DNA from: Bacteroidales bacterium
GTDB taxonomy: Bacteria > Bacteroidota > Bacteroidia > Bacteroidales > UBA932
Direction of reading: 5' to 3'
Assembly: GCA_017550525.1 (NCBI GenBank)
Contig: JAFZOU010000054.1
Location: 1 to 38,157, forward strand
DNA length: 38,157 nt
The number at the start of each line of letters is the position of its first letter. Position 1 is the stretch's first letter. The notes under the pieces were generated by a model that worked only from the letters and a program-made list of their open reading frames with translations, had not been told where the DNA came from and did no database searches. Positions 1 to 38,157 of the stretch are shown in pieces. A program made the translations under genes and the position numbers.

Positions 1-951
1 GAGAGTGATGTTCTTCTGCTTTATGTCGTACTCTGCGGCACGGGCGAAAAAATGGGCCTTTAAACTATCCGTAAGGGCTTCTCCCGTGAAATCAAAATTA
101 ACGGAGCGGCCCTCAATCTTATAGTCATAAAGGTATGAACGGCCCACCAGGCGGTTTTCTTCCACGAAGTCGTGCACATTTCTCTCGAAATTATTCTGGG
201 CCACAAGCCTGAAAGCTGTCCAGAGGCTGGGGATGATAACAATTGCCAGCACTATGGACATAATGCGGTTTCTCTTGACGGAAACTTCTGCCGATATTCC
301 GGTAACCGTGCGGAAACGGAGGTATTTCACCATCAGGAAAGTTGCCAGGGCAATGAATACGCTGTTGATGACAAACAGGTACATTGCGCCAAAGAAGAAA
401 TGCATGTCAAGGTGCGCCAGGCCGTATCCTGCAGTGCAAAGCGGCGGCATGAGGGCCGTGGCAATTGCTACGCCGGAAAGCACGGTCCCGCGTTCCTTGC
501 GGCTGTTTTCAAGGATGCCGGCAAGGCCGCCGAAAAGGGCTATGAGGACGTCGTAGATGGTGGGGGAGGTGCGGGCCTCAAGCTCCGTGGGATTCACAAG
601 GGACAGCGGGGACAGAAGGAAAAACACCGTTGAAGCCAGAAGGGATATGCCCACCATCACCAGGAGGTTCTTTACGGCCGATTTAAGGAGGTCCGTGTCA
701 TTTGTGCCAAGGGCAAGGCCGGTGCCGATGATAGGGCCCATAAGGGGGGACACAAGCATTGCGCCGATGATTACGGCCGTAGAGTTGACATTTAGGCCAA
801 CGGAAGCAAGTACAATGGCGAAGGCAAGGATCCAGGCGTTGGGCCCCTTGAACCAGATGGAGGATTTGATTCTCTCTGCTGCGGAATCAGTGTCTATCTG
901 GTCATATATATAAGTGTACTGACGAATTCTCTTTTTTATATCTTCCCACAT
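1..951 (-). CDS. DUF389 family membrane protein (partial, 3' end outside window)
   Basis: The minus strand reads open from an ATG at 951 to the left window edge (317 codons, no stop), so the C-terminus is missing. The protein begins MWEDIKKRIRQYTYIY and then has a series of hydrophobic segments. The segment with IIGAMLVSPLMGPIIGTGLA (about residues 60-80) and the later GVAIATALMPPLCTAGYGLA are hallmarks of the DUF389 (TIGR00341-type) integral membrane family, whose function is not established. About five or six membrane segments are visible in the first 230 residues, followed by a soluble region rich in charged residues. No good TAnnTTTG box was found upstream. The gene is divergent from the flavodiiron gene, with starts only 66 bases apart. 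Confidence 0.85.
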   Translation of the reverse strand, partial: MWEDIKKRIRQYTYIYDQIDTDSAAERIKSSIWFKGPNAWILAFAIVLASVGLNVNSTAVIIGAMLVSPLMGPIIGTGLALGTNDTDLLKSAVKNLLVMVGISLLASTVFFLLSPLSLVNPTELEARTSPTIYDVLIALFGGLAGILENSRKERGTVLSGVAIATALMPPLCTAGYGLAHLDMHFFFGAMYLFVINSVFIALATFLMVKYLRFRTVTGISAEVSVKRNRIMSIVLAIVIIPSLWTAFRLVAQNNFERNVHDFVEENRLVGRSYLYDYKIEGRSVNFDFTGEALTDSLKAHFFARAAEYDIKQKNITL

Positions 952-988
952 ACGCGTGTAATTTCCCGCAATGTACGCATTTTTTTCG

Positions 989-996
989 TATCTTTG
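989..996 (+). promoter_or_regulatory. -7 box TATCTTTG of the flavodiiron gene
   Basis: TATCTTTG matches the Bacteroidetes TAnnTTTG element. It lies 22 bases before the ATG at 1018 and overlaps an upstream in-frame TTG (994), which argues that the TTG is not the real start. Confidence 0.7.
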
Positions 997-1017
997 TATG
1001 AGTTAGAATCACATTTT

Positions 1018-2187
1018 ATGAAAGAAATAGCAAGCGGTATCCGCTATATCGGCGTAGATGATCTGGACCTGGACCTTTTTGAGAGTCAGTATGTTATCCC
1101 GGAGGGAATGTCTTACAATTCCTACCTTATCCTGGATGATAAGGTGGCAATTTTGGACACAGTTGATGCCCGTAAGGCCGAAGTTTGGCTGGAAGGCCTC
1201 GGGGAGGCCCTTCAGGGCAGGAAGCCTGATTACCTCATAGTGAACCATATGGAGCCTGACCACTCCGGGGCTATCGGCCTTCTTACGCAGCGTTATCCGG
1301 ACATCACAATTGTTGCAACCGCAATGGCAATAAAGTTCCTGGGCCAGTTCAATCCCGGAAAAAGCTTCAAGACTCAGGCAGTGAAGGAAGGGGACACCCT
1401 TGACCTTGGCGTGAAATCCCTTCGCTTTTTCACCGCCCCCATGGTGCACTGGCCGGAGGTAATGGTGACCTTTGAGGATACTACAGGCACGCTTTTCAGC
1501 GCAGATGCCTTTGGTAAGTTCGGAGCTATCTCCAAGACTGCTTTCTGGGCCGATGAAGACGACTGGGCCTGCGAAGCCCGCCGCTACTATTTCAACATCT
1601 GCGGCAAATATGGCCCGCAGGTGTCGGCCCTTCTTAAGAAACTTCCCGCAGTGAAGCTGATTGCTCCGCTCCATGGTCCTCTTATGAGAAATGACCTGAC
1701 GCAATACCTTAATCTATATAAGATATGGAGTGCCTACGATGTTGAGTCGGAGGGCGTTATGGTGGCCTATGCATCCATCCACGGCGGCACTAAGGCAGTG
1801 GCAGAGCATTTTGCACAGCTTCTGAAGGCGCAAGGCTGCCCCAAGGTAGTTCTCACAGACCTCACCCGCGACGACCGAGCTGAGGCCATAGAGGATGCTT
1901 TCCGCTACGGAACGCTTGTCATGGCTGCCGCAAGTTATGACGCCGGGCTCTTCACACCCGCGTATGATTTCCTTCACTCGCTCCAGATGAAAGGCTGGCA
2001 GAAACGCCGCGTGGGCCTCATAGAAAACGGCACCTGGGCACCCACCGCCGGCCGCGTGATGAAGGAAATGTTCGGTGCAATGAAGGACATCACCCTGGTT
2101 GGTGACCTTGTCACCATCAAGAGCGTAATGACTCCGGCCGATGAATCTGCTTTAGAGGCCCTGGCTAAGGCCGTTATTGCTTCTTAA
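1018..2187 (+). CDS. fprA: A-type flavoprotein / flavodiiron protein (O2 or NO reductase)
   Basis: Cytoplasmic 389-residue enzyme of the flavodiiron family, which reduces O2 to water and/or NO to N2O and protects anaerobes. The N-terminal beta-lactamase-like domain carries the full diiron ligand set: H77-x-E79-x-D81-H82, H144 (in MVHWPEV), D163 (in SADAF) and H219 (in PLHGP). A C-terminal flavodoxin domain starts near residue 245 with VMVAYASIHGGTKAVAE, the FMN-phosphate loop region. Length fits a two-domain class A protein with no extra rubredoxin domain. Start set at ATG 1018 because the promoter box overlaps the upstream TTG. It is a single gene; its stop overlaps that of rmuC on the other strand. 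Substrate preference (O2 versus NO) cannot be read from sequence. Confidence 0.93.
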   Translation: MKEIASGIRYIGVDDLDLDLFESQYVIPEGMSYNSYLILDDKVAILDTVDARKAEVWLEGLGEALQGRKPDYLIVNHMEPDHSGAIGLLTQRYPDITIVATAMAIKFLGQFNPGKSFKTQAVKEGDTLDLGVKSLRFFTAPMVHWPEVMVTFEDTTGTLFSADAFGKFGAISKTAFWADEDDWACEARRYYFNICGKYGPQVSALLKKLPAVKLIAPLHGPLMRNDLTQYLNLYKIWSAYDVESEGVMVAYASIHGGTKAVAEHFAQLLKAQGCPKVVLTDLTRDDRAEAIEDAFRYGTLVMAAASYDAGLFTPAYDFLHSLQMKGWQKRRVGLIENGTWAPTAGRVMKEMFGAMKDITLVGDLVTIKSVMTPADESALEALAKAVIAS

Positions 2188-3431
2188 TCTATCTCCGGAA
2201 GCGGTTTCTTTGGGTTTTTGGGAACGCCAAGCTTTAGGAGCTGATGGGCGCTAACAAGTATGGACTGGCCTGAATCTGAGATTTTGGCCGATACTCTGTC
2301 ATATTCATCCTGAGCCGCCTTGAGCTTGGCACCCATGGCTGCATGTGCGCTGGCGAAATCGGCCACACGGTCTATCATGGCCTGGGCGGCCTTGATGATC
2401 TTCTCCTGGTTGCGGGCCTGCTCGTAGTTGGTCCAGGCAACGCGTATCATCCTGAGGAAGGGCATAAGGGTCTCTTCAGTTGTGAGGAGGACGCCCTGCT
2501 GGTAGGCCTCCTGGAAGATGCCGGGAACAAGGGTTTTGGCAAGTTGGAGGGCTCCGTAGTTGGGGATGAACATTATTACGTAGTCAAGGGTTTTGTAGCC
2601 GTCCCTGATGTAATCCTGATAACGCTTGGTGGAGAGGCTCTTGATTTGGGCGCGGATGGCCTGGAGATTGCGGCGGGCCGCGTCTTCCTTCAGGGCCGGA
2701 TCCTGGGCCGAATACCAGTCTGAGAGCGCTTCCATTGAGGTTTTTGCGTCTATGATAACCTCCGTGCGGTCCGGGTAATGGAGGATATAGTCCGGCCTCA
2801 TGCGCTTGCCGCTGTCCTCGTTGAGGACAATGGACCCCTGCGCGTCACGGAGGGTTTCCTCACGGTCAAAGTCACGGCCTTCCTCCATACCCTCGTTGAC
2901 AAGGATATTGTAGAGGATCATTTCACCCCATGTACCCGTCATCTTGTTCTGGCCCTTGAGGGCCTGGGCAAGGTTATCGGCCTTGGTGCCAATTGCCTGG
3001 GTCTGGTCCTGAAGGTGCTTCACGGCCTGCTCTACGGCGGTTTTGAGGGTTGCGGTGCCCTCACTCTGGGAGCGCTTCTGGGCCTCGAAACTCTCCTGCA
3101 TCGCCTTCAGATTCTGGCCAAGGGGCCCTGCAAGGGCCTTGAAGGTTTCCTCCGCCTTTTTCTGGAGGGCTTCCTCACGCTGTTTCAGTAGCTGTTCCGT
3201 TTCTGCGGTGAGTTGGCTTTTCACAAGTTCCAACTGGCTGTCAAAGGACTCCTGCTGCAGTTCCCTGAGTTTTTCTGCGTTCTCCAGAGCTGCTTTTGCC
3301 TGGATAAGGTCATTCTCAAGGACATTGCACGCCTTAACCTCATGGGCGTGCATGATGAGGTATGTGATTACGGCGGTAAGGACTACCGCTGCCAGCGTTA
3401 TGATAATTATGATTGCCGTTGTATTATCCAT
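2184..3431 (-). CDS. rmuC: RmuC family DNA recombination protein
   Basis: 415 residues. One N-terminal membrane anchor (about residues 5-27, very Ile/Val rich) is followed by a long coiled-coil region rich in Glu, Gln and Lys (about 30-150). The conserved RmuC domain follows, with GTWGEMILYNILVNEG, RPDYILHYPD, VIIDAKTSMEALSDW and DYVIMFIPNYGA. RmuC proteins limit inversions and recombination at short inverted repeats; the domain has a PD-(D/E)xK-like nuclease fold, and the D-x(n)-DAK pattern is visible here. The ORF stays open further upstream, but ATG 3431 lies directly before the anchor and just after the stop of the flavoprotein gene, so it is preferred. It is the last gene of a four-gene minus-strand operon. 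Confidence 0.93.
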   Translation of the reverse strand: MDNTTAIIIIITLAAVVLTAVITYLIMHAHEVKACNVLENDLIQAKAALENAEKLRELQQESFDSQLELVKSQLTAETEQLLKQREEALQKKAEETFKALAGPLGQNLKAMQESFEAQKRSQSEGTATLKTAVEQAVKHLQDQTQAIGTKADNLAQALKGQNKMTGTWGEMILYNILVNEGMEEGRDFDREETLRDAQGSIVLNEDSGKRMRPDYILHYPDRTEVIIDAKTSMEALSDWYSAQDPALKEDAARRNLQAIRAQIKSLSTKRYQDYIRDGYKTLDYVIMFIPNYGALQLAKTLVPGIFQEAYQQGVLLTTEETLMPFLRMIRVAWTNYEQARNQEKIIKAAQAMIDRVADFASAHAAMGAKLKAAQDEYDRVSAKISDSGQSILVSAHQLLKLGVPKNPKKPLPEID

Positions 3432-3433
3432 GC

Positions 3434-4654
3434 TCAAATATACGAAAAACTTTTCAGAATGCTGCGGGCGCATACATAACCGGTGCTCCAGGCGGCCTGG
3501 AGGTTGAATCCGCCCGTTATTGCGTCTATGTCAAGGACCTCTCCGGCAAAGAAAAGCCCGGGGTACTTCTTGCTCTCAAGGGTGCTTAGGTCTATGTTTG
3601 AAAGGCCGATACCACCCGCCGTAACAAACTCCTCCTTGAATTTTCCCTTTCCGGAAACGGGGTAGGAGTCCTGGGTAAGGGCGGCGGTAAGGCGGTTGAG
3701 CCCCTTGGATCCAAGTTCCGCCCAGCGTATATCCGGCCTCAGGCCAGCCTTGGAGATGAGATGCTCCCAAAGCCTCTGCTGAAGGAGGGGAGTGTTGGAA
3801 ATCTGCTTCTGGGGGTTCTCCAAGGCCGATTCTCGGAGCATTTCACGCACCTCATTCTCATTTCTGTCCAGCCAGTTTATGGCCACCGTGGCTTTGTACT
3901 GATGCTCTGCAAGGTAACGGGCCGCGTATGATGAGAGTTTCAGCGTTGCCGGGCCGCTGACTCCCCAGTCCGTTATGAGTAGGGGACCTGAGGCCTTGAA
4001 CGCTGTCCCTGGAATACTTATGGATGCGTCCACCACAAGGCCCATAAGGGTTGTGAGGCTCTTGTCCGGGATATTCAGCGTGAAAAGGGAGGGGACAGGA
4101 GGCACTATCTCAAGGTCCAGGCCTTCAAACATTGAGGTCCCTCTGCTCATTCCTCCGGTTGTGACGACAACGTAGTCAAAACTATCTCCGTTTACTTTCA
4201 GACCCCCGATCACGTCGGGGGTGACGTCATTGCCGGCTTGACCGGTAATCTCTTTGACTGGAGTACCAACCCGGATATCGGCCCCGTCCATAGCGCGGAG
4301 AAGGCAGCGGACAATGTCCATTGCGTCCTGGCTGCATGGGAACCAGCAGTGGTCTTCCTGAAGGGTGCAGGGGACGCCGCGTTCCGTGAACCAGCGGATG
4401 GTGTCCTCATTGGAAAATGCCTTCAGGGCACGTTTCATAACGCGTTCCCCGCGGGGGTAGGCATCGGAGAGGGAACGTATGCCCTCAAAGTCATTTGTGA
4501 GGTTGCACCTGCCGCCGCCGGTTATTGCAAGCTTTGCCATCGGCCTTGAGCTGGCTTCAAACACCGTTACGGACAAATCCGGAGCGCAACGCCTCAGCTC
4601 CGCGGCGCAAAAGCACCCCGCAGCTCCGGCTCCTATGATTGCAACCGTTTTCAT
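3434..4654 (-). CDS. BaiN/HI0933 family NAD(P)/FAD-dependent oxidoreductase
   Basis: 406-residue flavoprotein of the HI0933/YhiN/BaiN group. The N-terminus has a dinucleotide-binding motif (VAIIGAGAAGCFCAAEL, glycines 8, 10, 13). Family signatures follow: GGGRCNLTN near residue 47, a VVVTTGG segment near 160, and a C-terminal FAD-contacting LFFAGEVLDIDAITGGFNLQ (split here: GEVLD..GGFNLQAAW). The physiological substrate is unknown for most members; in gut clostridia BaiN acts on bile acids, but that cannot be inferred here. Residues 136-151 (ITGQAGNDVTPDVIGG) are encoded exactly by a pair of REP-like palindromes and lie in what is a short variable loop in relatives. Its ATG overlaps the stop of the YgjP-like gene by 4 bases. 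Confidence 0.88.
   Translation of the reverse strand: MKTVAIIGAGAAGCFCAAELRRCAPDLSVTVFEASSRPMAKLAITGGGRCNLTNDFEGIRSLSDAYPRGERVMKRALKAFSNEDTIRWFTERGVPCTLQEDHCWFPCSQDAMDIVRCLLRAMDGADIRVGTPVKEITGQAGNDVTPDVIGGLKVNGDSFDYVVVTTGGMSRGTSMFEGLDLEIVPPVPSLFTLNIPDKSLTTLMGLVVDASISIPGTAFKASGPLLITDWGVSGPATLKLSSYAARYLAEHQYKATVAINWLDRNENEVREMLRESALENPQKQISNTPLLQQRLWEHLISKAGLRPDIRWAELGSKGLNRLTAALTQDSYPVSGKGKFKEEFVTAGGIGLSNIDLSTLESKKYPGLFFAGEVLDIDAITGGFNLQAAWSTGYVCARSILKSFSYI
3435..3442 (-). promoter_or_regulatory. Possible -7 box TATATTTG directly before rmuC
   Basis: Read on the minus strand, TATATTTG ends 3 bases before the rmuC ATG. It coincides with the last codons and stop of the upstream flavoprotein gene, so it may be chance. 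If used, the rmuC message would be leaderless. Confidence 0.35.
4202..4249 (-). repeat. Inverted pair of REP-like palindromes inside a coding gene (16 codons)
   Basis: Two hairpin units face each other. The plus-strand unit has arms ACCCCCGA/TCGGGGGT, loop TCACG and tail GACG (4202-4226). The minus-strand unit has arms ATTACCGG/CCGGCAAT (one mismatch), loop TCAAG and tail GACG (4249-4225). The two tails overlap in GACGTC. The pair is exactly 48 bp, starts and ends on codon boundaries, and encodes ITGQAGNDVTPDVIGG. Units with the same design occur at 6177-6201 and 12031-12055. Confidence 0.75.
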
Positions 4655-5064: not shown

Positions 5065-6115
5065 CCTCTTCCGGAAGCACTATCTGCTTGTACTGGTTCT
5101 TGCGCTTGAGCCAGCGCTCACGTGCATACTGCTGCATATCTGTGATAGTGTCGTTCTCGTCGATGATCTCCATTCCAAGGATGGTTTCCATGATGTCCTC
5201 CAGCGTGATGATGCCCTGGAAGCAGCCGTAGTCGTCAATAATGCAGGCAATCTGGTCCTTGGTCTTGAGGAGGCTTTCCCAGATGTCACTCACCGTTGTT
5301 TCCTCGTGGAAGGCCGCAATCTTGCGCTTGATGGTTTTAAGGCGCATATCAAACTTGTCCTCTGCAAGATTCTCAAGGGCGTCGTACCTGAGGATATATC
5401 CAGTGATGAATTCAGGGGAGTCTGAGTATACGGGGATGCGGGAGTTATGGGAGAGCTCTTCCTGCTTGTAGAACTCCTTGAGAGTCATTGATTCAGGGGC
5501 TATGGCGGCCACAACGCGGGGCGTCATGACGTCATAGGCCTTAATGTCGTCAAGCTTTATGATGTTCTGGATGACCTTGTTCTCACTGTTATCCAGGACG
5601 CCTTCTTCCTCTCCCATATTTGCCATTGCCGATACTTCCTCCCTGGAAATGCCAAGGTCCGGATCCTCATCTGAAATTGTGTTATGGAGCTTGTCAATGA
5701 GCCACACGATGGGGAAGAGGAGATACACCAGGAAGTTCATAACGCGGGAGAGCCAGAGGAGGTCTTTCCAGTGGGATGTGCCTATGGTTTTAGGGACAAT
5801 CTCTGAGAAGACCAGGATGAGGATGGTCATTATGGCCGATATTATCCCGAACCAGTGGTCTCCGGTGAGGAGGGTGGCCTGGTGGCCCACCGCCGCGGCG
5901 CCAAGGGTGTTTGCAATGGTATTGAGGGACAGGATGGCCGACAGGGGGCGGTCAGGGTCCTGCTTGAATTTCATAAAGAGGGCTGCATTCTTGTCTCCTT
6001 CGTCTTCCTTCATTGTGATGTAGGAGATAGGAGTGGACATAAGCACGGATTCCAGCAGCGAGCACAGGAACGAAATGCCCATTGTGAGAAGGAGATATAA
6101 TATCAGTAAGCCCAT
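5054..6115 (-). CDS. CNNM/CorB-type transporter (DUF21 + CBS pair), lacking CorC_HlyC domain
   Basis: 353-residue membrane protein, first gene of the operon. An N-terminal DUF21 region contains about four hydrophobic segments (starting GLLILYLLLTMGISFLC), with the small-residue/Glu segment SLLESVLMSTP and the later VFSEIVPKTIG that mark the CNNM/CorB Mg2+ transport family. A CBS pair follows from VMTPRVVAAIAPE to IDDYGCFQGIITLEDIMETILG. The protein ends soon after in a charged tail (LPEEDDE), so the C-terminal CorC_HlyC domain of many homologues is missing. Likely role is divalent cation (Mg2+ or Co2+) export or homeostasis; the ion is inferred. Start is ATG 6115; the ORF could open at TTG 6121, which is less likely. 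Confidence 0.88.
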   Translation of the reverse strand: MGLLILYLLLTMGISFLCSLLESVLMSTPISYITMKEDEGDKNAALFMKFKQDPDRPLSAILSLNTIANTLGAAAVGHQATLLTGDHWFGIISAIMTILILVFSEIVPKTIGTSHWKDLLWLSRVMNFLVYLLFPIVWLIDKLHNTISDEDPDLGISREEVSAMANMGEEEGVLDNSENKVIQNIIKLDDIKAYDVMTPRVVAAIAPESMTLKEFYKQEELSHNSRIPVYSDSPEFITGYILRYDALENLAEDKFDMRLKTIKRKIAAFHEETTVSDIWESLLKTKDQIACIIDDYGCFQGIITLEDIMETILGMEIIDENDTITDMQQYARERWLKRKNQYKQIVLPEEDDE

Positions 6116-6209: not shown

Positions 6210-7448
6210 ATGAAGCAAGAACAGATATTAATAAGGATTTCCGGTAAGGACCGCGTAGGGCTTACCGCGGAGATAATGGCCATCCTGGCAAAGTACGACG
6301 CCCAGATCCTGGACCTTGGCCAGGCCGTGATTCACAACACCCTTTCTATGGGTATCCTCATAAGGATAGACGAACCCCACTCCGGCCAGGTGATGAAGGA
6401 TCTCCTTTTCAAGACCACCGAACTTGGGAATATAAGCATTGGCTTTGCTCCCATCTCCGACGACGACTACGAGGCCTGGGCCGGCCGCCAGGGACGTAAC
6501 CGCTACATCCTTACCATTATCGGCCGAAGCCTCAGCGCCGCCCAGATTCAGGCTGCAACTGACGTTATAAGCCGTTACGGGCTTAACATAGACGCCATCA
6601 AGCGCCTCACGGGCCGTATGAGCATAATGCATCCTGAGCACAACGTACGCGCGTGCGTGGAGTTCTCCGTCCGCGGCTTTTTATCGGCCGATGACAAGAG
6701 CGCCATGCAGAAGGACCTTATGACAATGAGCTCCGAGGCGGGGATGGACTTCTCTTTCCAGAAGGACGACATGTACCGCCGTATGCGCCGCCTCATCTGT
6801 TTTGATATGGATTCCACCCTCATCCAGGCAGAGTGTATAGATGAACTTGCAAGGCGTCATGGCGTTTATGACAAAGTGGCCGCAATCACTGAGCGCGCAA
6901 TGCGCGGTGAGATAGATTTCAAGGAGAGTTTCACGGAGAGGGTTGCCCTGCTTAAGGGCCTGGATGTGTCTGTGATGCAGGATATTGCAGAGCATCTTCC
7001 CATAACTGAAGGCACAGACCGCCTTATGTCCGTCCTCAAGACCTGCGGCTACAAGATTGCTATCCTCAGCGGCGGTTTCACCTTCTTTGGAGAGTACCTC
7101 CAGAGGAAGTACGGCATAGACTACGTTTACGCAAATGAACTTGAGATAGGGGAGGACGGAAAACTCACCGGAAGGTATCTTGGAGAGGTTGTAGACGGCC
7201 GCAGGAAGGCCGATCTACTTAAGCTGATCGCCCAGACGGAGCACGTGAACCTTGCCCAGACAATTGCCGTTGGAGACGGCGCCAATGACCTCCCTATGCT
7301 CAATGAGGCAGGCCTTGGAATTGCCTTCCACGCAAAGCCGCGCGTGAAGGAAAGCGCCCGCCAGAGCATCAGCACAATAGGCCTGGACGGCGTTCTGTAT
7401 TTCATCGGATTCAAGGATTCCCACCTTGGAGAACAAGGTAAACTTTAA
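6210..7448 (+). CDS. serB: Phosphoserine phosphatase with N-terminal ACT domains
   Basis: 412 residues. Catalyses the last step of serine synthesis, phosphoserine to serine, in the cytoplasm. N-terminal ACT domain (ILIRISGKDRVGLTAEIMAIL, residues 6-26) and a second ACT-like region (YILTIIGRSLSAAQIQAA, about 105-125) are followed by a HAD phosphatase domain. Motif I is D199-M-D201-S-T; the capping segment is IQAECIDELARRHG; motif II is the Ser of ILSGGF; motif IV is the GDGANDLPML around D356. Full length for the two-ACT form common in Bacteroidetes. The stop overlaps the start of the exporter gene by one base (TAATG), so the two are probably co-translated. The ACT domains suggest serine-type feedback, inferred from the family. 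Confidence 0.95.
   Translation: MKQEQILIRISGKDRVGLTAEIMAILAKYDAQILDLGQAVIHNTLSMGILIRIDEPHSGQVMKDLLFKTTELGNISIGFAPISDDDYEAWAGRQGRNRYILTIIGRSLSAAQIQAATDVISRYGLNIDAIKRLTGRMSIMHPEHNVRACVEFSVRGFLSADDKSAMQKDLMTMSSEAGMDFSFQKDDMYRRMRRLICFDMDSTLIQAECIDELARRHGVYDKVAAITERAMRGEIDFKESFTERVALLKGLDVSVMQDIAEHLPITEGTDRLMSVLKTCGYKIAILSGGFTFFGEYLQRKYGIDYVYANELEIGEDGKLTGRYLGEVVDGRRKADLLKLIAQTEHVNLAQTIAVGDGANDLPMLNEAGLGIAFHAKPRVKESARQSISTIGLDGVLYFIGFKDSHLGEQGKL
6683..6692. repeat. Palindromic form ATCGGCCGAT of the over-represented heptamer
   Basis: One of two places (the other is 20493-20502) where two copies of ATCGGCC overlap to form a perfect 10-bp palindrome. See the finding on this motif. Confidence 0.8.
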
Positions 7449-9717: not shown

Positions 9718-10059
9718 ATGGATAACAACCAACCCAAACCCCAGAATCAGCTTAGCATAGAGCTTAATCCCCAGACCACAAAGGTGTCATATTCAAACCT
9801 TGCAATCATATCCCATTCACGCAGTGAGTTTGTCCTGGATTTTGCAACCACTCTTCCCGGCCTTCCCAAAGCCATGGTGAGTGACCGCATCATCATGACT
9901 CCGGAGCACGCAAAACGTCTTATGAACGCCCTCTTTGACAATGTCTCAAAGTATGAGGCCCAGTTTGGCGTGATTGATCTTGGCGGCAAGGGCCCCCAGC
10001 AGGGCGGCGGCACCTTCAATCTGGCCGATTTCGGTCCCTTCGGCGGCGGCAAGAACTAG
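9718..10059 (+). CDS. DUF3467 domain-containing protein
   Basis: 113-residue soluble protein of unknown function. After a polar start (MDNNQPKPQNQLSIELNP) it has the DUF3467 pattern: YSNLAIISHSRSEFVLDF, then DRIIMTPEHAKRLMNALFDNVSKYEAQFG, then a Gly-rich tail. The family is short, widespread and uncharacterised. Start chosen at 9718 because the promoter box lies just upstream; the longer reading from 9679 would begin inside the promoter. The stop is one base before the kdsC-like start (TAGTATG), so it is the first gene of a three-gene unit. Confidence 0.85.
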   Translation: MDNNQPKPQNQLSIELNPQTTKVSYSNLAIISHSRSEFVLDFATTLPGLPKAMVSDRIIMTPEHAKRLMNALFDNVSKYEAQFGVIDLGGKGPQQGGGTFNLADFGPFGGGKN

Positions 10060-29560: not shown

Positions 29561-32152
29561 ATGAAAAGAAGACTTCTTGCGCTTATTGCCTTTGCATTCA
29601 TAGCTCTTACAGCAAATGCAGTTCCCGCTAAGCCGGGTTTCCGCACCTTTACCCAGCCCGATGGAAAAACTCTGCTTCTTGAGCAGAGAGGAGACGAATG
29701 GGGAAGCTGGTTCACGGATAAGTCCGGGGCCAGGTACATCATGGACGGGAAAGGGTATTTCCTCCCCATAACGGAGAGCCAGCTTGGATCTTTGAAGCGT
29801 AGGGCGTCTAAAAGACGTGCCAGCGCAAACAGCTTACGATCCAGATCAGTTTTCAAGGACCTGACTCACGGCACCAGGCACATCCTGGTGGTGCTTGTCC
29901 AGTTTACGGACGTCAAGTTCAAGACAGACAATCCTCTGGCCAGTTTTGACGCGCTTCTCAATGAGCCGGGTTACAACGGGTATGGAGGTGCCGGCGCAAG
30001 CGGATCCGTAAGGGATTTCTATCTGGATAATTCCCATGGTGCCTTTGACCCCACATTTGATGTCTATGGGCCGGTAACGCTTGATAACCCAATCAAGTAT
30101 TATGGAGAGCAGACATTCAGTTCCGACGGCACAGTTGACGATGAAGACAAACAGCCTGAACTTGCGCTCTATGATGCCTGCCTGAAAATTGACGACTACG
30201 TGGATTTCTCCCAGTACGACTCTGACGCTGACAACCTGGTGGACATGATCCTTTTCTACTTTGCAGGCGGTTCTCAGGCCGAAGGCTGGCCGGCCGATTA
30301 TATCTGGCCTCATTCCTGGTCCATACAGGGATCCACCCAAAAAGATGTGCGTGATCACTTGTTTGACGGTAAAAAACTTGCCAATTACTTCTGCTCTGCA
30401 GAACTCAAGGGGGCTCCCAAGTTCAGCAGGATGTGCTCAATAGGTGTTACCTGTCATGAATTCGGTCATTCGCTGGGCCTCCCCGATTTTTATGACGTAG
30501 ACTATGAGGAGAACGGTTTGAACGAGGGGCTGTACATTTTTTCTACGATGTGCGATGGAGCATATAATGACGACTCCCGTACTCCGCCTTATTTCAACGC
30601 TGAAGAAAGGATAATGCTGGGCTGGATGGATGAGAGTGACGTGAAGCCCGTTGCAGCAGGAGATAATGTCCTGGAATTCATAGACGCGAATGTAGCCATG
30701 AGATCGGAGGCTACTGCAGAAGGAGAGTATTTCCTGTATGAGAAAAGGGGAGGAAGCGGGAATAAATGGGATTCCTTCCTTCCGGAGGGCCTTGTGGTGT
30801 ATCATGTGGATAAATCCCCGTCCCATTTGATTGGGGGTGGATATACGGCCGAAGGTATCTGGAGGACAAACAGTATCAACCGTTTTGGAGGTCATCCCTG
30901 TTTCACGGTTGTGCCTCCCATGGCTCCGGAGTCTACGGATTACGCCAACGAAAAGGTGGATTATTCAGACCTTGTACTTCCTGGTTTCCACGGGATAGTA
31001 TCTTTCGCTCCGCCGGCAGACTGGGATGGAAATGAGTCTGAACTGAGTCTGACCAATATCCGTCTTGACGGCAACCAGATCCTTTTCACCGCTCAGTTTG
31101 ACTCTGCCGGCCGGCTCCTTGAGGGAACCGTAAGAAATACGGCAGGGAACCCTCTGGAGGGGGTAACGGTTGCAATCAATCCTTATGCCGATGCTGCCGT
31201 GAGCGGTATGGTAAGGATAAGGAAACTCCTCTCTTCCGGAGCGCAGGAATGCATTACCGGTCCGGATGGCAAGTACTCGTTTGAGATTTCCTCTGATGCG
31301 CCTTCGGATTATTCGCTGAGCGCGGCCATGGAGGGTTATGTGGGGCAGTCTGTTACCGTGCGTCTCACAAAGAAGGTGAGCACTGTTGATTTCTCCCTGA
31401 GATCTGTGGGAGAGTTCGGAGCCACCGGGGAGTTCCCGTTCTATACGATGAACCCCGAAGACTCGTATGGTGGAGTGGGTGCCCTGAAGGACAAGTCAAT
31501 GATGGCTGCAGCAAAGTGCACAAGGAATGTCTGGGGCGCATATGAGGGCCTTCTTGTCAAGAAGGTGCAGTTCCCCACATACTTTGGCGCCGAAGCCTAT
31601 TATTTTATCCTGGATTCCCAGGATGGTATATCTGCCGTAAAATCTCCGGTGATAGATGAGAGGCGAATGGTGTCATTTGATATCTCGGATAAGGGAATCC
31701 ATATCCCTTCCGGGGATTTCCATATTGGTTATGCCGTGGAGAATGTAGCGGATAATCAGTACAATTGCCTGATGGCTCTGGCACCGGGAGTTGGCTGCTA
31801 CACATCCTCTCTGACCCTTGACGGACATGGCTCCTGGGATTATCAAAGTGGTTATGATGTCCCTCTTGTCATTACCCTAAGCGACGAATCTTATGTCCTT
31901 GGGCTGCCGGATATCGGCTATCCTTACATAGACATCGCAGCCGGTGCTTTCCATTCAGGGGATAAGGTACAGTTTATACTGGCAACTTCGCCTGATTTGT
32001 TCATCGCCAGCGTTTCATGGATATTTGACGGAACAAGTGTTCCTGACGGCACCACTGTCGAACTCCAGAAGGGATGGCACACTGCATGTGTCACCATAGA
32101 GTACAAAGACGGCCAGAAAGATATTATAGAGAGGGAGATAGAGGTTATCTAA
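29561..32152 (+). CDS. M6-family metalloprotease with propeptide (copy 2)
   Basis: 863 residues. Signal peptide (LLALIAFAFIALTANA), then an N-terminal propeptide (about 22-105: GFRTFTQPDGKTLLLEQRGDEWGSW, quoted in part, then a basic KRRASKRRAS segment that could be a processing site). The catalytic domain starts at ILVVLVQFTDVKF. Zinc site HEFGHSLGLPDFYD with H299, E300, H303 and probably D309. Then EERIMLGWMD, LPEGLVVYHVD, a regulatory-like beta domain (about 520-610), and a C-terminal Ig-like domain with VSWIFDGTSV. Same domain order as copy 1 throughout, so the two arose by duplication. Ends overlapping rlmD by 8 bases on the opposite strand. Confidence 0.9.
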   Translation: MKRRLLALIAFAFIALTANAVPAKPGFRTFTQPDGKTLLLEQRGDEWGSWFTDKSGARYIMDGKGYFLPITESQLGSLKRRASKRRASANSLRSRSVFKDLTHGTRHILVVLVQFTDVKFKTDNPLASFDALLNEPGYNGYGGAGASGSVRDFYLDNSHGAFDPTFDVYGPVTLDNPIKYYGEQTFSSDGTVDDEDKQPELALYDACLKIDDYVDFSQYDSDADNLVDMILFYFAGGSQAEGWPADYIWPHSWSIQGSTQKDVRDHLFDGKKLANYFCSAELKGAPKFSRMCSIGVTCHEFGHSLGLPDFYDVDYEENGLNEGLYIFSTMCDGAYNDDSRTPPYFNAEERIMLGWMDESDVKPVAAGDNVLEFIDANVAMRSEATAEGEYFLYEKRGGSGNKWDSFLPEGLVVYHVDKSPSHLIGGGYTAEGIWRTNSINRFGGHPCFTVVPPMAPESTDYANEKVDYSDLVLPGFHGIVSFAPPADWDGNESELSLTNIRLDGNQILFTAQFDSAGRLLEGTVRNTAGNPLEGVTVAINPYADAAVSGMVRIRKLLSSGAQECITGPDGKYSFEISSDAPSDYSLSAAMEGYVGQSVTVRLTKKVSTVDFSLRSVGEFGATGEFPFYTMNPEDSYGGVGALKDKSMMAAAKCTRNVWGAYEGLLVKKVQFPTYFGAEAYYFILDSQDGISAVKSPVIDERRMVSFDISDKGIHIPSGDFHIGYAVENVADNQYNCLMALAPGVGCYTSSLTLDGHGSWDYQSGYDVPLVITLSDESYVLGLPDIGYPYIDIAAGAFHSGDKVQFILATSPDLFIASVSWIFDGTSVPDGTTVELQKGWHTACVTIEYKDGQKDIIEREIEVI

Positions 32153-33551
32153 GCTCCAGGGCTACAACGTTCTCCACGTGCATGGTGTGGGGGAACATAT
32201 CCACGGGCTGCACGGCAGTTATGCGGTATTTCTCAGAGAGAATTGCAAGGTCCCTGGCCTGTGAGGCAGGGTTACAGCTCACATACACCATTCGGCCCGG
32301 GGCGGCACCAAGGATTACCTTTGCTACGTCAGGGTGGATACCTGCTCGGGGCGGATCCAGGATTATTACATCCGGCCTTCCGTGTTTAGAGATAAACGCC
32401 TCATTCAGAACATCTTTCATATCTCCGGCAAAGAAGCTGCAGTTGGTGATTCCGTTACGTTTGGCGTTGTCCTTTGCGTCTTCAATAGCCTCCGGGACAT
32501 ACTCAATTCCAACTACTTTGGCAGCCTTGCCGCTCACAAACTGGGCAATTGTGCCGGTGCCGGTATAGAGGTCATAGACAACCTCATTACCGGTAAGTGC
32601 CGCAAAGTCCCTTGCCACGCTGTAAAGCCTGTAAGCCTGCTGGGAATTTGTCTGATAGAAGGATTTAGGGCCGATTTTAAAGCTAAGTCCTTCCATGGTC
32701 TCGTATATGGCATCTTCTCCCTTGTAAAGGATAGGGGACTGGTCTGAAATAGAGTCGTTGAGCTTCTCGTTGACTATGTACCAGAGGCTGGAAATCTGGG
32801 GGAAACGGGCACTGAGAGCGTCCAGAAGGGCTTTTATATCCTCTATCCTTGGCTCTGCGAAGCAGAGGATCAGCATGACGTCACCCTTGTCGTTTGTCCT
32901 TACGAACATATTGCGGAAAAAGCCCCTGTTTTCCCGGATATTGTAAAACTCATAACCGTGCTCGAGGCAGAATTGCTTCACGAAGAGTCGGATGGCGTTT
33001 GAGGGCTCTTTCTGGAGATGGCACTCCTTGATATCCAGCACTTTATCAAAGAATTTACTGACGTGGAAGCCAAGGCCCACGCGTTCATCGGCCGTCAGTG
33101 CATCAGGATTCTCTCCGTTAAGGATCCAGCGTGATGCTGAAGCGCTGAATTCCAGCTTGTTACGATAATATCTGGTTTCAGGAGAGGGGAGTGTAGGCCT
33201 TATTCCTGGAACATCCAGGTGGCCGATACGGATAAGCTGGTCTTCCACCTGCTGCCGTTTAGCCTGAAGCTGCATAGTGTAAGGCAGTGGCTGCCATCGG
33301 CACCCTCCGCACACGCCAAAATGCGGGCAGAATGGCTCCAGACGGTCTTTTGAAGGCTTCACAATGCGTTTTATCCAGCCTTCCATGTAATTTTTCTTCT
33401 TTTTGAAGACCTGGATGTCTACAACGTCTCCGGGAACGGCGAAATCTACAAAGACAACTATTCCGTCCACATGGGCAAGAGCCTTGCCCTCGGCCGCCAC
33501 GGCCTCTATTGTTACGTTCTCCAATAGGAGATCAACTCTTTTTCTTGACAT
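32145..33551 (-). CDS. rlmD: 23S rRNA (uracil-C5)-methyltransferase, RlmD/RumA family
   Basis: 468 residues. N-terminal TRAM domain (about 8-65), 4Fe-4S cysteines C75, C81 and C84 plus a fourth in DIKECHLQ, then the SAM-dependent domain: DLYTGTGTIAQFV, IILDPPRAGIH and the catalytic Cys in VYVSCNPASQARDL, ending TMHVENVVAL. Methylates U1939 or U747 of 23S rRNA, or tRNA U54 in some relatives; the exact target cannot be set from sequence. The only promoter box lies so close to the ATG that the mRNA may be leaderless. Confidence 0.93.
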   Translation of the reverse strand: MSRKRVDLLLENVTIEAVAAEGKALAHVDGIVVFVDFAVPGDVVDIQVFKKKKNYMEGWIKRIVKPSKDRLEPFCPHFGVCGGCRWQPLPYTMQLQAKRQQVEDQLIRIGHLDVPGIRPTLPSPETRYYRNKLEFSASASRWILNGENPDALTADERVGLGFHVSKFFDKVLDIKECHLQKEPSNAIRLFVKQFCLEHGYEFYNIRENRGFFRNMFVRTNDKGDVMLILCFAEPRIEDIKALLDALSARFPQISSLWYIVNEKLNDSISDQSPILYKGEDAIYETMEGLSFKIGPKSFYQTNSQQAYRLYSVARDFAALTGNEVVYDLYTGTGTIAQFVSGKAAKVVGIEYVPEAIEDAKDNAKRNGITNCSFFAGDMKDVLNEAFISKHGRPDVIILDPPRAGIHPDVAKVILGAAPGRMVYVSCNPASQARDLAILSEKYRITAVQPVDMFPHTMHVENVVALELR

Positions 33552-34738: not shown

Positions 34739-35605
34739 ATGAAAAAATTCTTCATCTATGCAGCTATCGCTGCCCTCGTAATCCCCTTTGTATCTTGCAA
34801 CAACAAGATTGACTACGGCGGAAATGGCCCTCAGGCTAAGATCGAAAAGGCTAAGAATGCAGATAACGCCAAGAAAATCACCATTCAGCAGGGTACTGCA
34901 AAAGACAAAGGTATTAAGGAAATTGAATTCACGGACGGCGGCCTTTATATCGTAACCCGCGAAAAAACTAAGGCCGATGACAATACCGAAGTCATTACCG
35001 GTACTTATACTCTGGAGAATCTTGTCTATATTCTCCAGAATTTTGGTTCAGTGTCATTTGATGGCAACGGTAACGTTACTATTGAACTTCAGGGCGGAGA
35101 GACCGTAACCGCTACTTATCAGGAAGAGGACAAACTCCCTGAGTCAGATTTCTCCAATAGCATCGCCCATACCTGGAGAATTGACAAAGTTGACATCAGC
35201 GTAGTTGCAGATGGCAAGAACATTGGTTTTGTAAAGGATGGCTGCGACCTTGAGCTGATTGGAAAGGATATCGTAGAGCAGGCAAAATCCCTTGGCGCCG
35301 ATGTCAATGTTAATCTTGATCAGCTCAAAGGATATAATGTCAAGTCCCTCAGCTTCACATCTTCCAATACCTTTATCGTTGAGTTCACAGGTGCTCCTGT
35401 ATTCAAGGCAAATGTGAGCGGAATCAACCTCAACTCCTATAAGTTCACTTATAAGCTCGAAGCTGGCGTTGACAACGAACTTCTTAATGCAGAGGCAGAA
35501 TGCGAGTTTGCTCCTCAGACCGAAAAGACCGCATGGCTTACTGTTAAGGTAAATGCCGATGACTTCTCCGGAAGAGTTATCTTCATGATGACTGTAATTG
35601 ACTAG
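34739..35605 (+). CDS. Unrecognised lipoprotein
   Basis: 288 residues with a lipoprotein signal (IAALVIPFVSC, C20). A Lys/Asn-rich segment (about 35-60) leads to a beta-rich body: GLYIVTREKTKADD, VSFDGNGNVTIELQGGETVTATYQ (quoted in part), then HTWRIDKVDISVVADGKNIGF and VKSLSFTSSNTFIVEF. The pattern of a trailing lipocalin-like HTWRID segment is common in Bacteroidales lipoproteins of unknown function. Second gene of the pair with the envelope protein at 33726. Confidence 0.8.
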   Translation: MKKFFIYAAIAALVIPFVSCNNKIDYGGNGPQAKIEKAKNADNAKKITIQQGTAKDKGIKEIEFTDGGLYIVTREKTKADDNTEVITGTYTLENLVYILQNFGSVSFDGNGNVTIELQGGETVTATYQEEDKLPESDFSNSIAHTWRIDKVDISVVADGKNIGFVKDGCDLELIGKDIVEQAKSLGADVNVNLDQLKGYNVKSLSFTSSNTFIVEFTGAPVFKANVSGINLNSYKFTYKLEAGVDNELLNAEAECEFAPQTEKTAWLTVKVNADDFSGRVIFMMTVID

Positions 35606-35619: not shown

Positions 35620-35624
35620 TCCTT

Positions 35625-35655: not shown

Positions 35656-35675
35656 ATGTTTCCGTAAAAAATTGC

Positions 35676-35683: not shown

Positions 35684-35710
35684 TAATTACGTTTATTAAA
35701 GCCTTAACCA

Positions 35711-36844
35711 ATGTCTGTAATTGTAAAGACAGTAAATACCAAAAAGGAACTGAAAGCCTTTGTGAAGTTCCCGCTTGAACTATACAAAAACTGTCCCTAT
35801 TATGTTCCAGGGCTGTTTCTTGATGAAATGGCCACTCTGGATCCAGCAAAGAATCCAATGTCCAAGTATGCCAAATTCAGGCTTTTCCTGGCATACAAGG
35901 ACGGAAAGATAGCCGGCCGTGTGGCAGCTATCATCAATGAGATTGCAAACCGCAACTGGCAGCACCAGGAGGTTCGTTTTGGCTGGATAGACTTCATAGA
36001 CGATATGGAGGTTTCCAAGGCCCTCATAGATGCAGTATCGGCCTATGGAAAGGAAATGGGCATGACCCAGGTTACCGGCCCCCTTGGCTTCACTGATTTT
36101 GACAACGAAGGCTGCGTAGTGGAAGGCTTCGACCAAATTTCCACCTATGCCCTCAGGTTCAACTATGAATACTACGGCCGCCATTTTGAAGCTCTTTCAA
36201 TGACAAAGGCCAATGACTGGCTGGAGTACAGGATTTACGTGCCTGAGGCCCTTCCTGAAAAGGTAACACGCATAGCAAACCTCATCAGCCAGCGTTATAA
36301 CCTCAGCGTCAAGAAACTCTCCAAGCGTGACGTTACAAAGGGAGGCTACGGCCAGAAACTCTTTGACCTTGTAAACCGCACATACAACCAATTGTATGAT
36401 TTCACGGTCCTTCCGGAGGATGTTATGGACAAGTACGTGGACTCATATCTGGGCCTTCTGGACATGGATTATGTCACTGCCATAGAGGATGCAGAAGGTA
36501 AGCTTGTAGCCCTTGCCGTTGCTATGCCTTCTATAGCCAAGGCTGTTCATAAGTGCCGCGGTTACCTGTTCCCGTTCGGGTGGTGGCACCTTGTAAAGGC
36601 AATGTATCTGAAACACGACCCTGCAATTGAGCTTATGCTCATCGGCGTAGACCCTGAATACCGCAACAGGGGCGTCCATGCAATGCTTTTCAACCAGTTC
36701 ATAGGGAATCTCATAAAGGGCGGCTTCAAATACGGCGAATCCAACGCTGAGATGGAGACCAACACCTCCGTCCAGAATATCTGGAACGACTACGAGAAAG
36801 ATTTCGTACGCCGCAGAAGAGTCTTTTCTAAACCAATAGAATAG
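35711..36844 (+). CDS. GNAT-like protein, N-acetyltransferase fold
   Basis: 377 residues, soluble. The C-terminal region has a GNAT acetyl-CoA-binding pattern, LIGVDPEYRNRGVHAML (V-x-P-x-x-R-x-x-G), near residues 310-330, followed by FNQFIGNLIKGGF. The N-terminal half contains a second GNAT-like set of strands (LFLAYKDGKIAGRVAAII, about 55-72; MTQVTGPLGFTDFDNEG). The family is common and uncharacterised in Bacteroidetes. Four bases separate it from rarA, so they are co-transcribed; I see no functional link. Confidence 0.75.
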   Translation: MSVIVKTVNTKKELKAFVKFPLELYKNCPYYVPGLFLDEMATLDPAKNPMSKYAKFRLFLAYKDGKIAGRVAAIINEIANRNWQHQEVRFGWIDFIDDMEVSKALIDAVSAYGKEMGMTQVTGPLGFTDFDNEGCVVEGFDQISTYALRFNYEYYGRHFEALSMTKANDWLEYRIYVPEALPEKVTRIANLISQRYNLSVKKLSKRDVTKGGYGQKLFDLVNRTYNQLYDFTVLPEDVMDKYVDSYLGLLDMDYVTAIEDAEGKLVALAVAMPSIAKAVHKCRGYLFPFGWWHLVKAMYLKHDPAIELMLIGVDPEYRNRGVHAMLFNQFIGNLIKGGFKYGESNAEMETNTSVQNIWNDYEKDFVRRRRVFSKPIE

Positions 36845-36848
36845 ATAG

Positions 36849-38150
36849 ATGAGTGCATCTTCCGTAATGCTCCCTCCCCTCCCGGAGAGAATGAGACCAA
36901 GGACGCTGGATCAGTATGTGGGCCAGCGTCATCTGGTTGGTGAGGGATGCGTGTTAAGGAAGATGATAGAAAGCGGAAATCTCTCCTCTTTCATACTCTG
37001 GGGCCCTCCCGGAGTGGGTAAAACAACACTTGCGCATATAATTGCAGAAACCCTGGACAGGGATTTCTATACGTTAAGTGCGGTTACTGCGGGCGTAAAG
37101 GACGTGAGGGATATCTTTGAAAAGGCCAGCAAGTCCTCTCTCTTCAACCAGAAAGGCGCTCCAATCCTCTTTATTGATGAGATCCACCGCTTCAACAAAG
37201 CCCAGCAGGATGCCCTCCTTGGTGCCGTTGAAACGGGCACCATAGTCCTTATCGGCGCAACTACGGAAAACCCCTCCTTTGAGGTTATCACTCCCCTTTT
37301 GTCCCGCTGCCAGGTTTTTGTCCTTAAATCCCTTGAGCAGAATGATTTGCAGGCTCTTCTGGACCGCGCTCTAAGGGAAGATGTCCTCCTGAAGGACAAA
37401 AAGATTGAGGTCAGGGAAACCCAGGCTCTCATGCGTTACAGCGGCGGAGACGCCCGCAAGCTCCTTAATGTGCTGGAACTGGTCATAGACGCCCAGCCGG
37501 GAAACTCCCCTATCGTCATAGATAATGCTACTGTTACCTCCTCAATCCAGGAGAATATGGCTATCTATGACAAAGACGGGGAGATGCACTATGATATAAT
37601 ATCGGCCTTTATTAAGAGCATAAGGGGCTCGGATCCCAATGCCGCCATTTATTATCTGGCAAGAATGATTGACGGCGGAGAAGACCCTCTTTTCATTGCC
37701 CGGAGGCTGTGCCTAAGCGCATCTGAAGATGTGGGGCTGGCAAATCCCAACGCTCTTTTACTTGCCAACGCCTGTTTTGAGGTAGTGTCCAAAATCGGCA
37801 TGCCGGAAGGAAGGATTCCTTTGGCGGAAACTACCGTCTACCTTGCCTCATCTCCCAAGAGCAACGCCTCGTATATGGCCATAGAAAAGGCCCTGGCCGA
37901 GGTTAAGGAGAGCGGCAACCTTCCGGTCCCCCTCCCCATCAGAAACGCTCCTACTCAGCTTATGGAGGAGCTTGGCTACAGTGACGGCTACAAGTACGCC
38001 CACGATTATCCGGGCCATTTTGCCGATATGGAATTTATGCCGGAAGCCCTGAAGGGCAAGGTTTTCTACGAGCCCGCCTCCAATAAGCATGAGAACGTTC
38101 TCAAAGCCTATCTTGAGGCCTGCTGGCCCAAATACTATCAGAAAGGATAA
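36849..38150 (+). CDS. rarA: Replication-associated recombination protein A (AAA+ ATPase, RarA/MgsA)
   Basis: 433 residues. N-terminal clamp-loader-like motif LPERMRPRTLDQYVGQRHLVGEG, Walker A GPPGVGKT (52-59), Walker B FIDEIHRFNKAQQDALL, sensor 1 in IGATTENPSFEV, arginine finger region PLLSRCQVF, and sensor 2 in GDARKLLNVLEL. The C-terminal tetramerisation part holds the RarA-specific SAFIKSIRGSDPNAAIYYLARM and EDVGLANPNALL. RarA acts at stalled replication forks with RecA and SSB. Complete gene; only seven bases follow it in the window. Confidence 0.96.
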   Translation: MSASSVMLPPLPERMRPRTLDQYVGQRHLVGEGCVLRKMIESGNLSSFILWGPPGVGKTTLAHIIAETLDRDFYTLSAVTAGVKDVRDIFEKASKSSLFNQKGAPILFIDEIHRFNKAQQDALLGAVETGTIVLIGATTENPSFEVITPLLSRCQVFVLKSLEQNDLQALLDRALREDVLLKDKKIEVRETQALMRYSGGDARKLLNVLELVIDAQPGNSPIVIDNATVTSSIQENMAIYDKDGEMHYDIISAFIKSIRGSDPNAAIYYLARMIDGGEDPLFIARRLCLSASEDVGLANPNALLLANACFEVVSKIGMPEGRIPLAETTVYLASSPKSNASYMAIEKALAEVKESGNLPVPLPIRNAPTQLMEELGYSDGYKYAHDYPGHFADMEFMPEALKGKVFYEPASNKHENVLKAYLEACWPKYYQKG

Positions 38151-38157
38151 CCTACTC

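Follow-up and report, generated by a model that had tools for sequence, protein, structure and literature searches.

What maintains the heptamer ATCGGCC, read as GGCCGAT on the other strand, at so high a density in the DNA of a Bacteroidales bacterium? The stretch that raises this question (contig JAFZOU010000054.1 of assembly GCA_017550525.1; 38,157 bases, 51% G+C; hereafter the window) carries the heptamer 62 times by exact count, 31 times on each strand, against 4.8 copies predicted from base composition alone (Markov order 0). A sequence-only reading of the same DNA had estimated about 62 copies on both strands with about 5 expected, and both figures were accurate; so were its three longest gaps between copies, its example positions (to within 2 bases) and its two overlapping pairs, each forming the 10-mer ATCGGCCGAT (6683/6686 and 20493/20496). 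It had also counted about six copies each of three one-base variants; this was near the mark for GTCGGCC (7) and ATCGGCG (8), but not for ATCGGCA, which has 20 copies and is itself enriched. The most telling fact was absent from that reading: the trinucleotide CGA, contained in the heptamer, is depleted elsewhere in the genome. All 62 copies in the window fall within called open reading frames (ORFs; simple longest-ORF rule, no gene finder), at the following exact-match positions, the strand being that of ATCGGCC; the last line gives the depletion of CGA, read as CGA or TCG.

676..682, minus strand, ATCGGCC
1273..1279, plus strand, ATCGGCC
1548..1554, minus strand, ATCGGCC
2136..2142, minus strand, ATCGGCC
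2286..2292, minus strand, ATCGGCC
2358..2364, plus strand, ATCGGCC
2976..2982, plus strand, ATCGGCC
3604..3610, minus strand, ATCGGCC
3824..3830, minus strand, ATCGGCC
4277..4283, plus strand, ATCGGCC
4539..4545, plus strand, ATCGGCC
5834..5840, minus strand, ATCGGCC
6519..6525, plus strand, ATCGGCC
6683..6689, plus strand, ATCGGCC, first half of overlapping pair ATCGGCCGAT
6686..6692, minus strand, ATCGGCC, second half of overlapping pair ATCGGCCGAT
7208..7214, minus strand, ATCGGCC
7747..7753, plus strand, ATCGGCC
9093..9099, plus strand, ATCGGCC
9483..9489, minus strand, ATCGGCC
10023..10029, minus strand, ATCGGCC
10770..10776, plus strand, ATCGGCC
11084..11090, plus strand, ATCGGCC
12418..12424, plus strand, ATCGGCC
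12786..12792, minus strand, ATCGGCC
13714..13720, plus strand, ATCGGCC
13782..13788, minus strand, ATCGGCC
13947..13953, plus strand, ATCGGCC
14691..14697, minus strand, ATCGGCC
14990..14996, plus strand, ATCGGCC
15748..15754, plus strand, ATCGGCC
16410..16416, minus strand, ATCGGCC
16452..16458, plus strand, ATCGGCC
17188..17194, plus strand, ATCGGCC
17694..17700, minus strand, ATCGGCC
17877..17883, plus strand, ATCGGCC
18198..18204, minus strand, ATCGGCC
18792..18798, plus strand, ATCGGCC
20493..20499, plus strand, ATCGGCC, first half of overlapping pair ATCGGCCGAT
20496..20502, minus strand, ATCGGCC, second half of overlapping pair ATCGGCCGAT
20562..20568, minus strand, ATCGGCC
20871..20877, minus strand, ATCGGCC
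21275..21281, minus strand, ATCGGCC
21404..21410, minus strand, ATCGGCC
24089..24095, plus strand, ATCGGCC
24292..24298, plus strand, ATCGGCC
24697..24703, plus strand, ATCGGCC
25560..25566, minus strand, ATCGGCC
26181..26187, minus strand, ATCGGCC
26210..26216, minus strand, ATCGGCC
27168..27174, minus strand, ATCGGCC
27684..27690, plus strand, ATCGGCC
28212..28218, plus strand, ATCGGCC
28230..28236, plus strand, ATCGGCC
28513..28519, plus strand, ATCGGCC
28767..28773, minus strand, ATCGGCC
30292..30298, minus strand, ATCGGCC
32669..32675, minus strand, ATCGGCC
33087..33093, plus strand, ATCGGCC
33221..33227, minus strand, ATCGGCC
34972..34978, minus strand, ATCGGCC
36037..36043, plus strand, ATCGGCC
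37601..37607, plus strand, ATCGGCC
1..38157, no strand, depletion of CGA/TCG outside the heptamer (in ORFs, 349 observed against 1089 expected by synonymous shuffles, 0.32)

Markov models of orders 1 and 2 expect 5.8 and 4.2 copies in the window, while orders 3, 4 and 5 expect 11.8, 29.9 and 62.1, but models of the latter kind already hold most of the heptamer itself. Synonymous-codon shuffles within each ORF, which leave protein and codon use unchanged, yield a mean of only 6.8 copies (maximum 16; 500 runs, 32 window ORFs). Enrichment extends to the rest of the genome, a check that the same reading had proposed: the window's own genome (G000; 2.38 Mb, 136 contigs) contains 3,596 copies (1800 + 1796 by strand), i.e., one per 662 bases or about 1500 per Mb. 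The reversed word occurs 108 + 119 times there, but is a poor control, since genus g32 appears about 3-fold enriched by it yet shows neither effect by shuffle (G107), and genome G003 has 1,571 heptamers yet shows neither effect in a 44 kb coding sample. Our sample of G000 comprised 402,653 readable bases (13 of 41 stretches, all N, were excluded), and its coding part of 376,137 nt holds 600 heptamers compared to 85 expected from 30 synonymous shuffles (range 73–99). This roughly 7-fold excess makes GGCCGAT/ATCGGCC the top 7-mer by this measure, at 1.6 copies per kb within ORFs and 26 per 27.6 kb of non-ORF DNA. Most copies lie in two codon registers, G-GCC-GAT (258) and A-TCG-GCC (192), but five of the six registers are raised 3.6- to 32-fold over the shuffles and the sixth 1.3-fold, in agreement with the earlier view that one amino-acid pair does not explain the word. 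The excess is a property of the DNA and not of amino-acid or codon choice.

The copies are biased neither to one strand nor to gene ends. Strand counts over the 28 readable stretches of G000 are 320:307, with 14:22 and 19:12 in the most uneven of the long heptamer-rich stretches; this balance argues against Chi or KOPS (FtsK-orienting polar sequences) of the usual kind. Relative to gene direction, 522 copies are sense and 482 antisense, and counts by fifths of the gene (103-111-108-109-91 and 82-119-106-97-78) reveal no excess at gene ends. Regular spacing was rejected: of eight segments, a single one departed clearly from random toward evenness, and another was less even. The four bases that can stand next to GGCCGAT give enrichment ratios of 5.9, 8.7, 10.8 and 6.7, and the palindromic extension (8.7) is not specially preferred. 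Overlap of the kind seen in the 10-mer, a spacing of 3, makes up 14 of 599 heptamer spacings; with overlapping pairs left out, adjacent heptamers in the segments of the spacing test lie on opposite strands 491 times and on the same strand 394 times.

Outside the heptamer, its core is excluded. We compared all 32 trinucleotides, with synonymous shuffles as the expectation, and CGA was the lowest, even with heptamers included, in samples of G000 with two sisters (0.45), G019 (0.60), G271 (0.67) and G124 (0.75). With heptamers left out, the ratio in the G000 sample minus its motif-poor segments is 0.39; in those motif-poor, possibly recently acquired segments it ranges from 0.21 to 0.87. TCGA, which has the word on both strands, stands at 0.22–0.23 in G000. 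The deficit is alike at NNC|GA, NTC|G and NCG|A codon junctions and extends between genes, where CGA relative to dinucleotide expectation is 0.60 in G000, 0.80 in G019 and 0.96 in motif-poor genomes; tRNA genes, used as another non-coding comparison, gave no difference (13 against 11), but are too few. Among the 256 NNNCGAN contexts the median ratio is 0.34, and only GGCCGAT (7.25), TGCCGAT (2.73) and GGCCGAA (1.34) exceed 1. Of 719 TCG serine codons, 221 (about 31%) sit inside A-TCG-GCC, compared to 15 of 1574 in motif-poor genomes. The dipeptides concerned occur at normal frequencies, indicating that proteins are not bent to fit, and codon use, codon pairs and dipeptides were rejected as the cause on the strength of these frequencies and the shuffles. 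CGA depletion and the enrichment or retention of GGCCGAT, and more weakly of TGCCGAT, act on DNA rather than protein and without strand preference. The exclusion weakens more than 1 kb from a heptamer solely in genes that have no relative in the compared stretches. GGCTGAT, one transition away from the heptamer, is at 0.46 in both G000 and G019, and is not depleted in G124 and G271. Genome G271 (loci L205–L209), in addition to excluding CGA, falls to 0.24 for CATG and to 0.25 for GATC relative to synonymous shuffles.

Comparison of related sequences shows how the two words evolve. Between the window and loci L029–L031, heptamer sites are unchanged in 80–82% of cases and all 7-mers in 43–48%. 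For the three main codon pairs, the heptamer version is conserved in 82 of 103 cases and the same dipeptides in other codons in 61 of 160 (Fisher p = 2e-11, with three pairwise comparisons pooled and shared ancestry uncorrected). Conservation in sister genomes, another check suggested by the sequence-only reading, was strong: fourfold sites agree between sister species at 172 of 182 positions (95%) inside heptamers, compared to 5141 of 7880 (65%) outside. Agreement outside ranges from 55% to 71% across twelve distance bins without a trend, which argues that nothing spreads to the heptamer flanks. CGA outside heptamers is the least conserved trinucleotide (0.55).

Substitutions were counted in genes totalling about 86 kb and present in at least three of four sister species, with heptamer sites excluded; the direction of each change was set by the state most common among the three or four sister species, with no outgroup, and controls were pooled. 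Compared to the same base change elsewhere, gains of CGA were suppressed on all nine routes, by 2.4- to 11-fold: T, A and G to C before GA by 2.9-, 2.4- and 3.9-fold; TT, TA and TG to TC before G by 4.0-, 5.7- (a single event in 104) and 11-fold (three events); and CT, CA and CC to CG before A by 6-, 6.5- and 5.5-fold. Losses rose only 1.3- to 1.8-fold, and a smaller earlier run that included heptamer sites showed the same suppression of gains with no rise in losses. These counts speak against simple methylation decay: deamination of methyl-cytosine would produce the reverse pattern, and the C before GA is replaced by A, G and T alike, such that decay of CpG or TCG was rejected. The pattern fits selection, or repair that rejects new CGAs; selection and repair-driven biased conversion leave the same footprint.

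By the relatives of the window's valine-tRNA ligase gene, G000 belongs with uncultured Bacteroidales, many of which come from the rumen and other ruminant stomachs. Among 25 genomes of the genus, G000 and G019 carry about 1.5 heptamers per kb and several are at background; among 249 of the family, only G124 besides G000 exceeds 0.6 per kb; and among 295 of the order (completeness at least 90), none except G000 is above about 0.42 per kb (genome sizes rounded). Six more genomes at 1.2–1.65 per kb were reached via neighbour loci. In a quick valS tree of 81 rows with 24 open forks, one clade holds most of the signal, 23 of its 29 rows falling under a CGA ratio of 0.75 (a cut of our choosing), and a second, separate occurrence lies around L098, whose genome matches G124 in its counts. 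The starred branches force at least five label changes, implying more than one gain or loss of the trait. Heptamer enrichment and CGA ratio are correlated across 70 loci (Spearman -0.70, with no tree correction; loci with less than 9 kb of coding sequence were excluded, from 80), every valS row with at least 4-fold heptamer enrichment has a CGA ratio of at most 0.82, and 10-kb segments of G000 with fewer heptamers tend to weaker CGA exclusion (-0.52, n = 34).

In the Bacteroidales genomes G033, G059, G060, G065, G318 and G345, ATCGGCC is almost lacking (0–10 copies) and occurs less often than the reversed word, a pattern that a restriction target inside it, e.g., GGCC, would produce. In some relatives (e.g., L033, L034, L070, L086), the 7-mer that most exceeds synonymous shuffles is TCCGGAA, probably through a codon-junction preference.

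A resident phage separates the two effects. Positions 1–14863 of L021 (14.9 kb, contig C50 of G000) make up a portion of a Mu-like transposable phage, in which matches to phage families were found for the transposase, ATPase, terminase, portal and head genes. Its ORFs hold 2 heptamers compared to 2.3 expected, and their CGA ratio is 0.52 (z -10); hence, exclusion reaches the resident phage and enrichment does not. The nearest viral contig, L264 from a viral metagenome (terminase 95% identical), has a ratio of 0.45 and no heptamer. Every one of the 24 terminase relatives found was scored; among the 23 that are more distant than L264, the ratio is at least 0.83 in 20, 0.78 in two and 0.64 in one, which has 35% G+C. 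No viral relatives of the transposase were confirmed. From this one phage, the cell may act against CGA, or loss of CGA may be the faster of two adjustments.

We searched for machinery that tracks the motif; as G000 and G019 are 91% complete, single gene absences are weak evidence. The C5 methyltransferase family PF00145 was found in 6 of 20 genomes, with no match in G019; PF01555 in 9 of 20, with none in G000 or G019; PF02384 in 11 of 18, with none in G000, G019, G293, G295 and G296; and PF07669 over the cut-off in 14 of 20, but not in G288, G293 or G296. Vsr occurs in 8 of 20 genomes, five of them motif-poor, and is weak in G019; in G000 its gene and that of a C5 methyltransferase lie close together on one contig. 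None of the four methyltransferase families, nor Vsr, is present in every motif-rich genome searched; the C5, N4/N6, type I and Eco57I methyltransferases and Vsr are disfavoured as the cause for want of one common to all these genomes. A strong form of PF07669 (500–514 aa) is confined to G000, G019, G124 and G291, i.e., 4 of the 12 motif-bearing genomes searched, and this Eco57I-type locus, promising at first, was likewise set aside, the strong form being missing in the other eight and its middle region differing between species. At these loci (L247 in G000; L245, L246, L248), a 213-aa ORF precedes the 500–514 aa ORF in three of four cases; species differ hardly at all in the first part of the Eco57I protein but widely in its middle, as if target modules had been exchanged. 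The type II/IV secretion ATPase family PF00437, the one pilus or competence family searched, exceeded the cut-off in just three motif-poor genomes out of 18, and was below it in ten motif-enriched genomes (G000, G019, G124, G271, G291–G293, G295, G296, G299). Within the window, residues 308–451 of a 468-aa ORF at 32145–33551 match the PADLOC model mad2 (mads_2; E 1.5e-20), and two large adjacent ORFs at 26848–29073 and 29561–32152 each contain an M6-family metalloprotease domain.

We tentatively read GGCCGAT as an iterated word of the class that includes highly iterated palindromes (HIPs) and DNA uptake sequences (DUS), kept in a clade of uncultured rumen Bacteroidales by a putative DNA activity that reads CGA, and as one half of a two-sided word constraint. 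The cell would have a sequence-reading DNA-processing activity, e.g., an enzyme that nicks or cleaves DNA or that acts in repair or recombination, with CGA as its core recognition. Were it to work on all DNA in the cell, and were its action at stray CGAs costly, new CGAs would be purged from the chromosome and from the resident phage. At GGCCGAT the activity would be tolerated or would perform its proper task, being useful or harmless there; the heptamer may be retained because it serves, for example, as a licensed site for nicking or stopping that recurs every few hundred bases. A bolder version, which we consider doubtful, is a two-word code for self DNA: CGA would be the signal to act and GGCCGAT the licence, with the chromosome purged of CGA and studded with GGCCGAT and the resident phage purged of CGA only. 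If true, such a code would amount to a genome-wide system of a new kind, for surveillance or for guiding repair, distinct from both HIPs and uptake sequences. Several results weigh against an activity of this kind. Genome G290 (61 kb) combines a CGA ratio of 0.59 with 13 heptamers against 8.9 expected, and no replacement heptamer stood out in those 61 kb; locus L057 has CGA at about 0.49 with a heptamer ratio of about 2-fold; and a signal-poor sister group of nine loci in the valS tree has heptamer ratios of 0.2–2.9 at CGA ratios of 0.87–0.98, all of which suggest that the two forces may be separate. In native genes the CGA ratio is 0.28–0.45 at every distance from a heptamer with no local relief, and local protection by an adjacent heptamer was rejected on that ground. 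Near-random spacing demands no site per fragment, losses of CGA appear to be raised less than simple selection of such strength predicts, no candidate enzyme was found, and the tested families are patchy across genomes.

Other explanations account for parts of these data. HIP-type or very-short-patch repair could resolve mismatches toward GGCCGAT and away from CGA, leaving the word as a functionless by-product, an origin that Elhai has proposed for HIP1. We regard this as rather unlikely, although it too predicts suppression of all routes into CGA and the 95% fourfold conservation, the density lies near the one per kb discussed for HIPs (PMC4390886), GGCTGAT is depleted in G000 and G019 as Vsr-like correction would give, and Vsr neighbours a C5 methyltransferase in G000. 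Against it stand the patchiness of Vsr and its presence in motif-poor genomes, the lack of a C5 methyltransferase match in G019, the undepleted GGCTGAT of G124 and G271, the weak exclusion of CGA in the HIP1-rich plasmids described below, and a phage that displays one effect without the other. That phage, its close relative L264 and the contrast with distant relatives would instead suit restriction-like avoidance alone, as would G290: a host nuclease or defence system would read CGA, and GGCCGAT would be a protected or modified context whose excess is secondary. This seems unlikely to us, since protection alone would bring the ratio to about 1 and not 7, a phage living in its host may merely adjust, and the motif-poor segments vary widely in CGA; to our knowledge, a trinucleotide is also far shorter than known restriction targets.

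That GGCCGAT is the target of a resident methyltransferase, orphan or part of a restriction-modification system, is improbable. HIPs, short words at 500–2500 copies per Mb, are tied to methyltransferases (PMC4390886), and single genomes here encode several such enzymes, but three of the families have no match in G019, G000 has only PF00145 among these three, and the strong Eco57I-type form is limited to four genomes and varies in its middle part, taken as the DNA-reading region. A DNA uptake sequence, i.e., preferential uptake or recombination of GGCCGAT DNA and spread by molecular drive, we judge more improbable still. Its density, its presence on each strand, its strong conservation and its rarity in some segments are reminiscent of DUS, which are conserved and occur on both strands. 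The DUS of Neisseria requires a 3-base core (PMC3630211). However, uptake sequences are biased toward gene ends (in Pasteurellaceae) and toward one orientation in reading frames (PMC2346458); the absence of such bias here, together with the lack of a secretion ATPase over the cut-off in the ten searched motif-enriched genomes and its three strong matches in motif-poor ones, indicates that this is not an uptake sequence of known type, and DUS theory gives no reason for excluding CGA. As for codon choice, codon-pair preference or translation effects, the two dominant registers are all that favours them, and as the main cause they are already refuted by the shuffles, the breadth of registers and the presence of both signals between genes; almost no likelihood is left to them.

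What iterated words like HIP1 do has been hard to settle because enrichment is all that can be seen. This heptamer brings a second, opposite footprint, depletion of its core, which can be scored in any genome by synonymous shuffle. As the clade and its neighbours include lineages with both effects, mainly one, or neither, presence-absence comparison should be able to identify the gene responsible, and short DNA should allow in vitro tests of the mechanism. No paper in the PubMed Central (PMC) literature contained GGCCGAT or ATCGGCC as a whole word, and the titles and abstract openings of PMC papers on Bacteroidetes uptake sequences, over-represented heptamers, word avoidance and iterated words report no such pair of heptamer and CGA.

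The sequence-only reading had left open whether the heptamer belongs with HIP1, uptake sequences, Chi or methylation targets; this caution was justified, but in their classical forms Chi, uptake sequences and methylase-tied HIPs each fit badly, given the lack of strand bias, of a pilus-type ATPase in the ten motif-enriched genomes searched and, among the four families tested, of a methyltransferase common to all motif-rich genomes searched. Chi, the word of RecBCD and AddAB, is a short over-represented word that could mark self DNA; the heptamer differs in its strand balance, and its density is several times that of Escherichia coli Chi. As in restriction-site avoidance, CGA is shunned by the chromosome (0.39) and by one resident phage (0.52); unlike it, the avoided word has three bases and is enriched inside one heptamer, which itself is not under-represented in the host but at 7 times shuffle expectation. 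The copy number of 3,596 in G000 compares with the hundreds to thousands of DUS in Neisseriaceae and Pasteurellaceae (PMC3630211 and PMC2346458), from which the heptamer departs in the missing pilus-type ATPase in searched motif-enriched genomes, the missing gene-end and orientation bias, and the depletion of its core elsewhere. The heptamer resembles HIPs in being a short word that is the top over-represented oligomer in coding and intergenic DNA, here one per 0.66 kb, and that, as Elhai 2015 (PMC4390886) describes for HIP1 and alternate HIPs of cyanobacteria, is replaced or lost in some lineages and biased against deviation at certain positions. HIP1, however, is palindromic and accompanied by methyltransferases of matching specificity (PMC4390886), whereas GGCCGAT is non-palindromic and tracked by no tested methyltransferase family. 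In two HIP1-rich cyanobacterial plasmids analysed by the same shuffle, HIP1 occurs 107 and 48 times compared to 7.0 and 1.9 expected (15- to 25-fold), while outside HIP1 the ratios are 0.80 and 0.82 for CGA and 0.40 and 0.94 for GATC. Exclusion of the core trinucleotide is thus weak in these plasmids (chromosomes lay outside the test) and strong in the genome that carries GGCCGAT.

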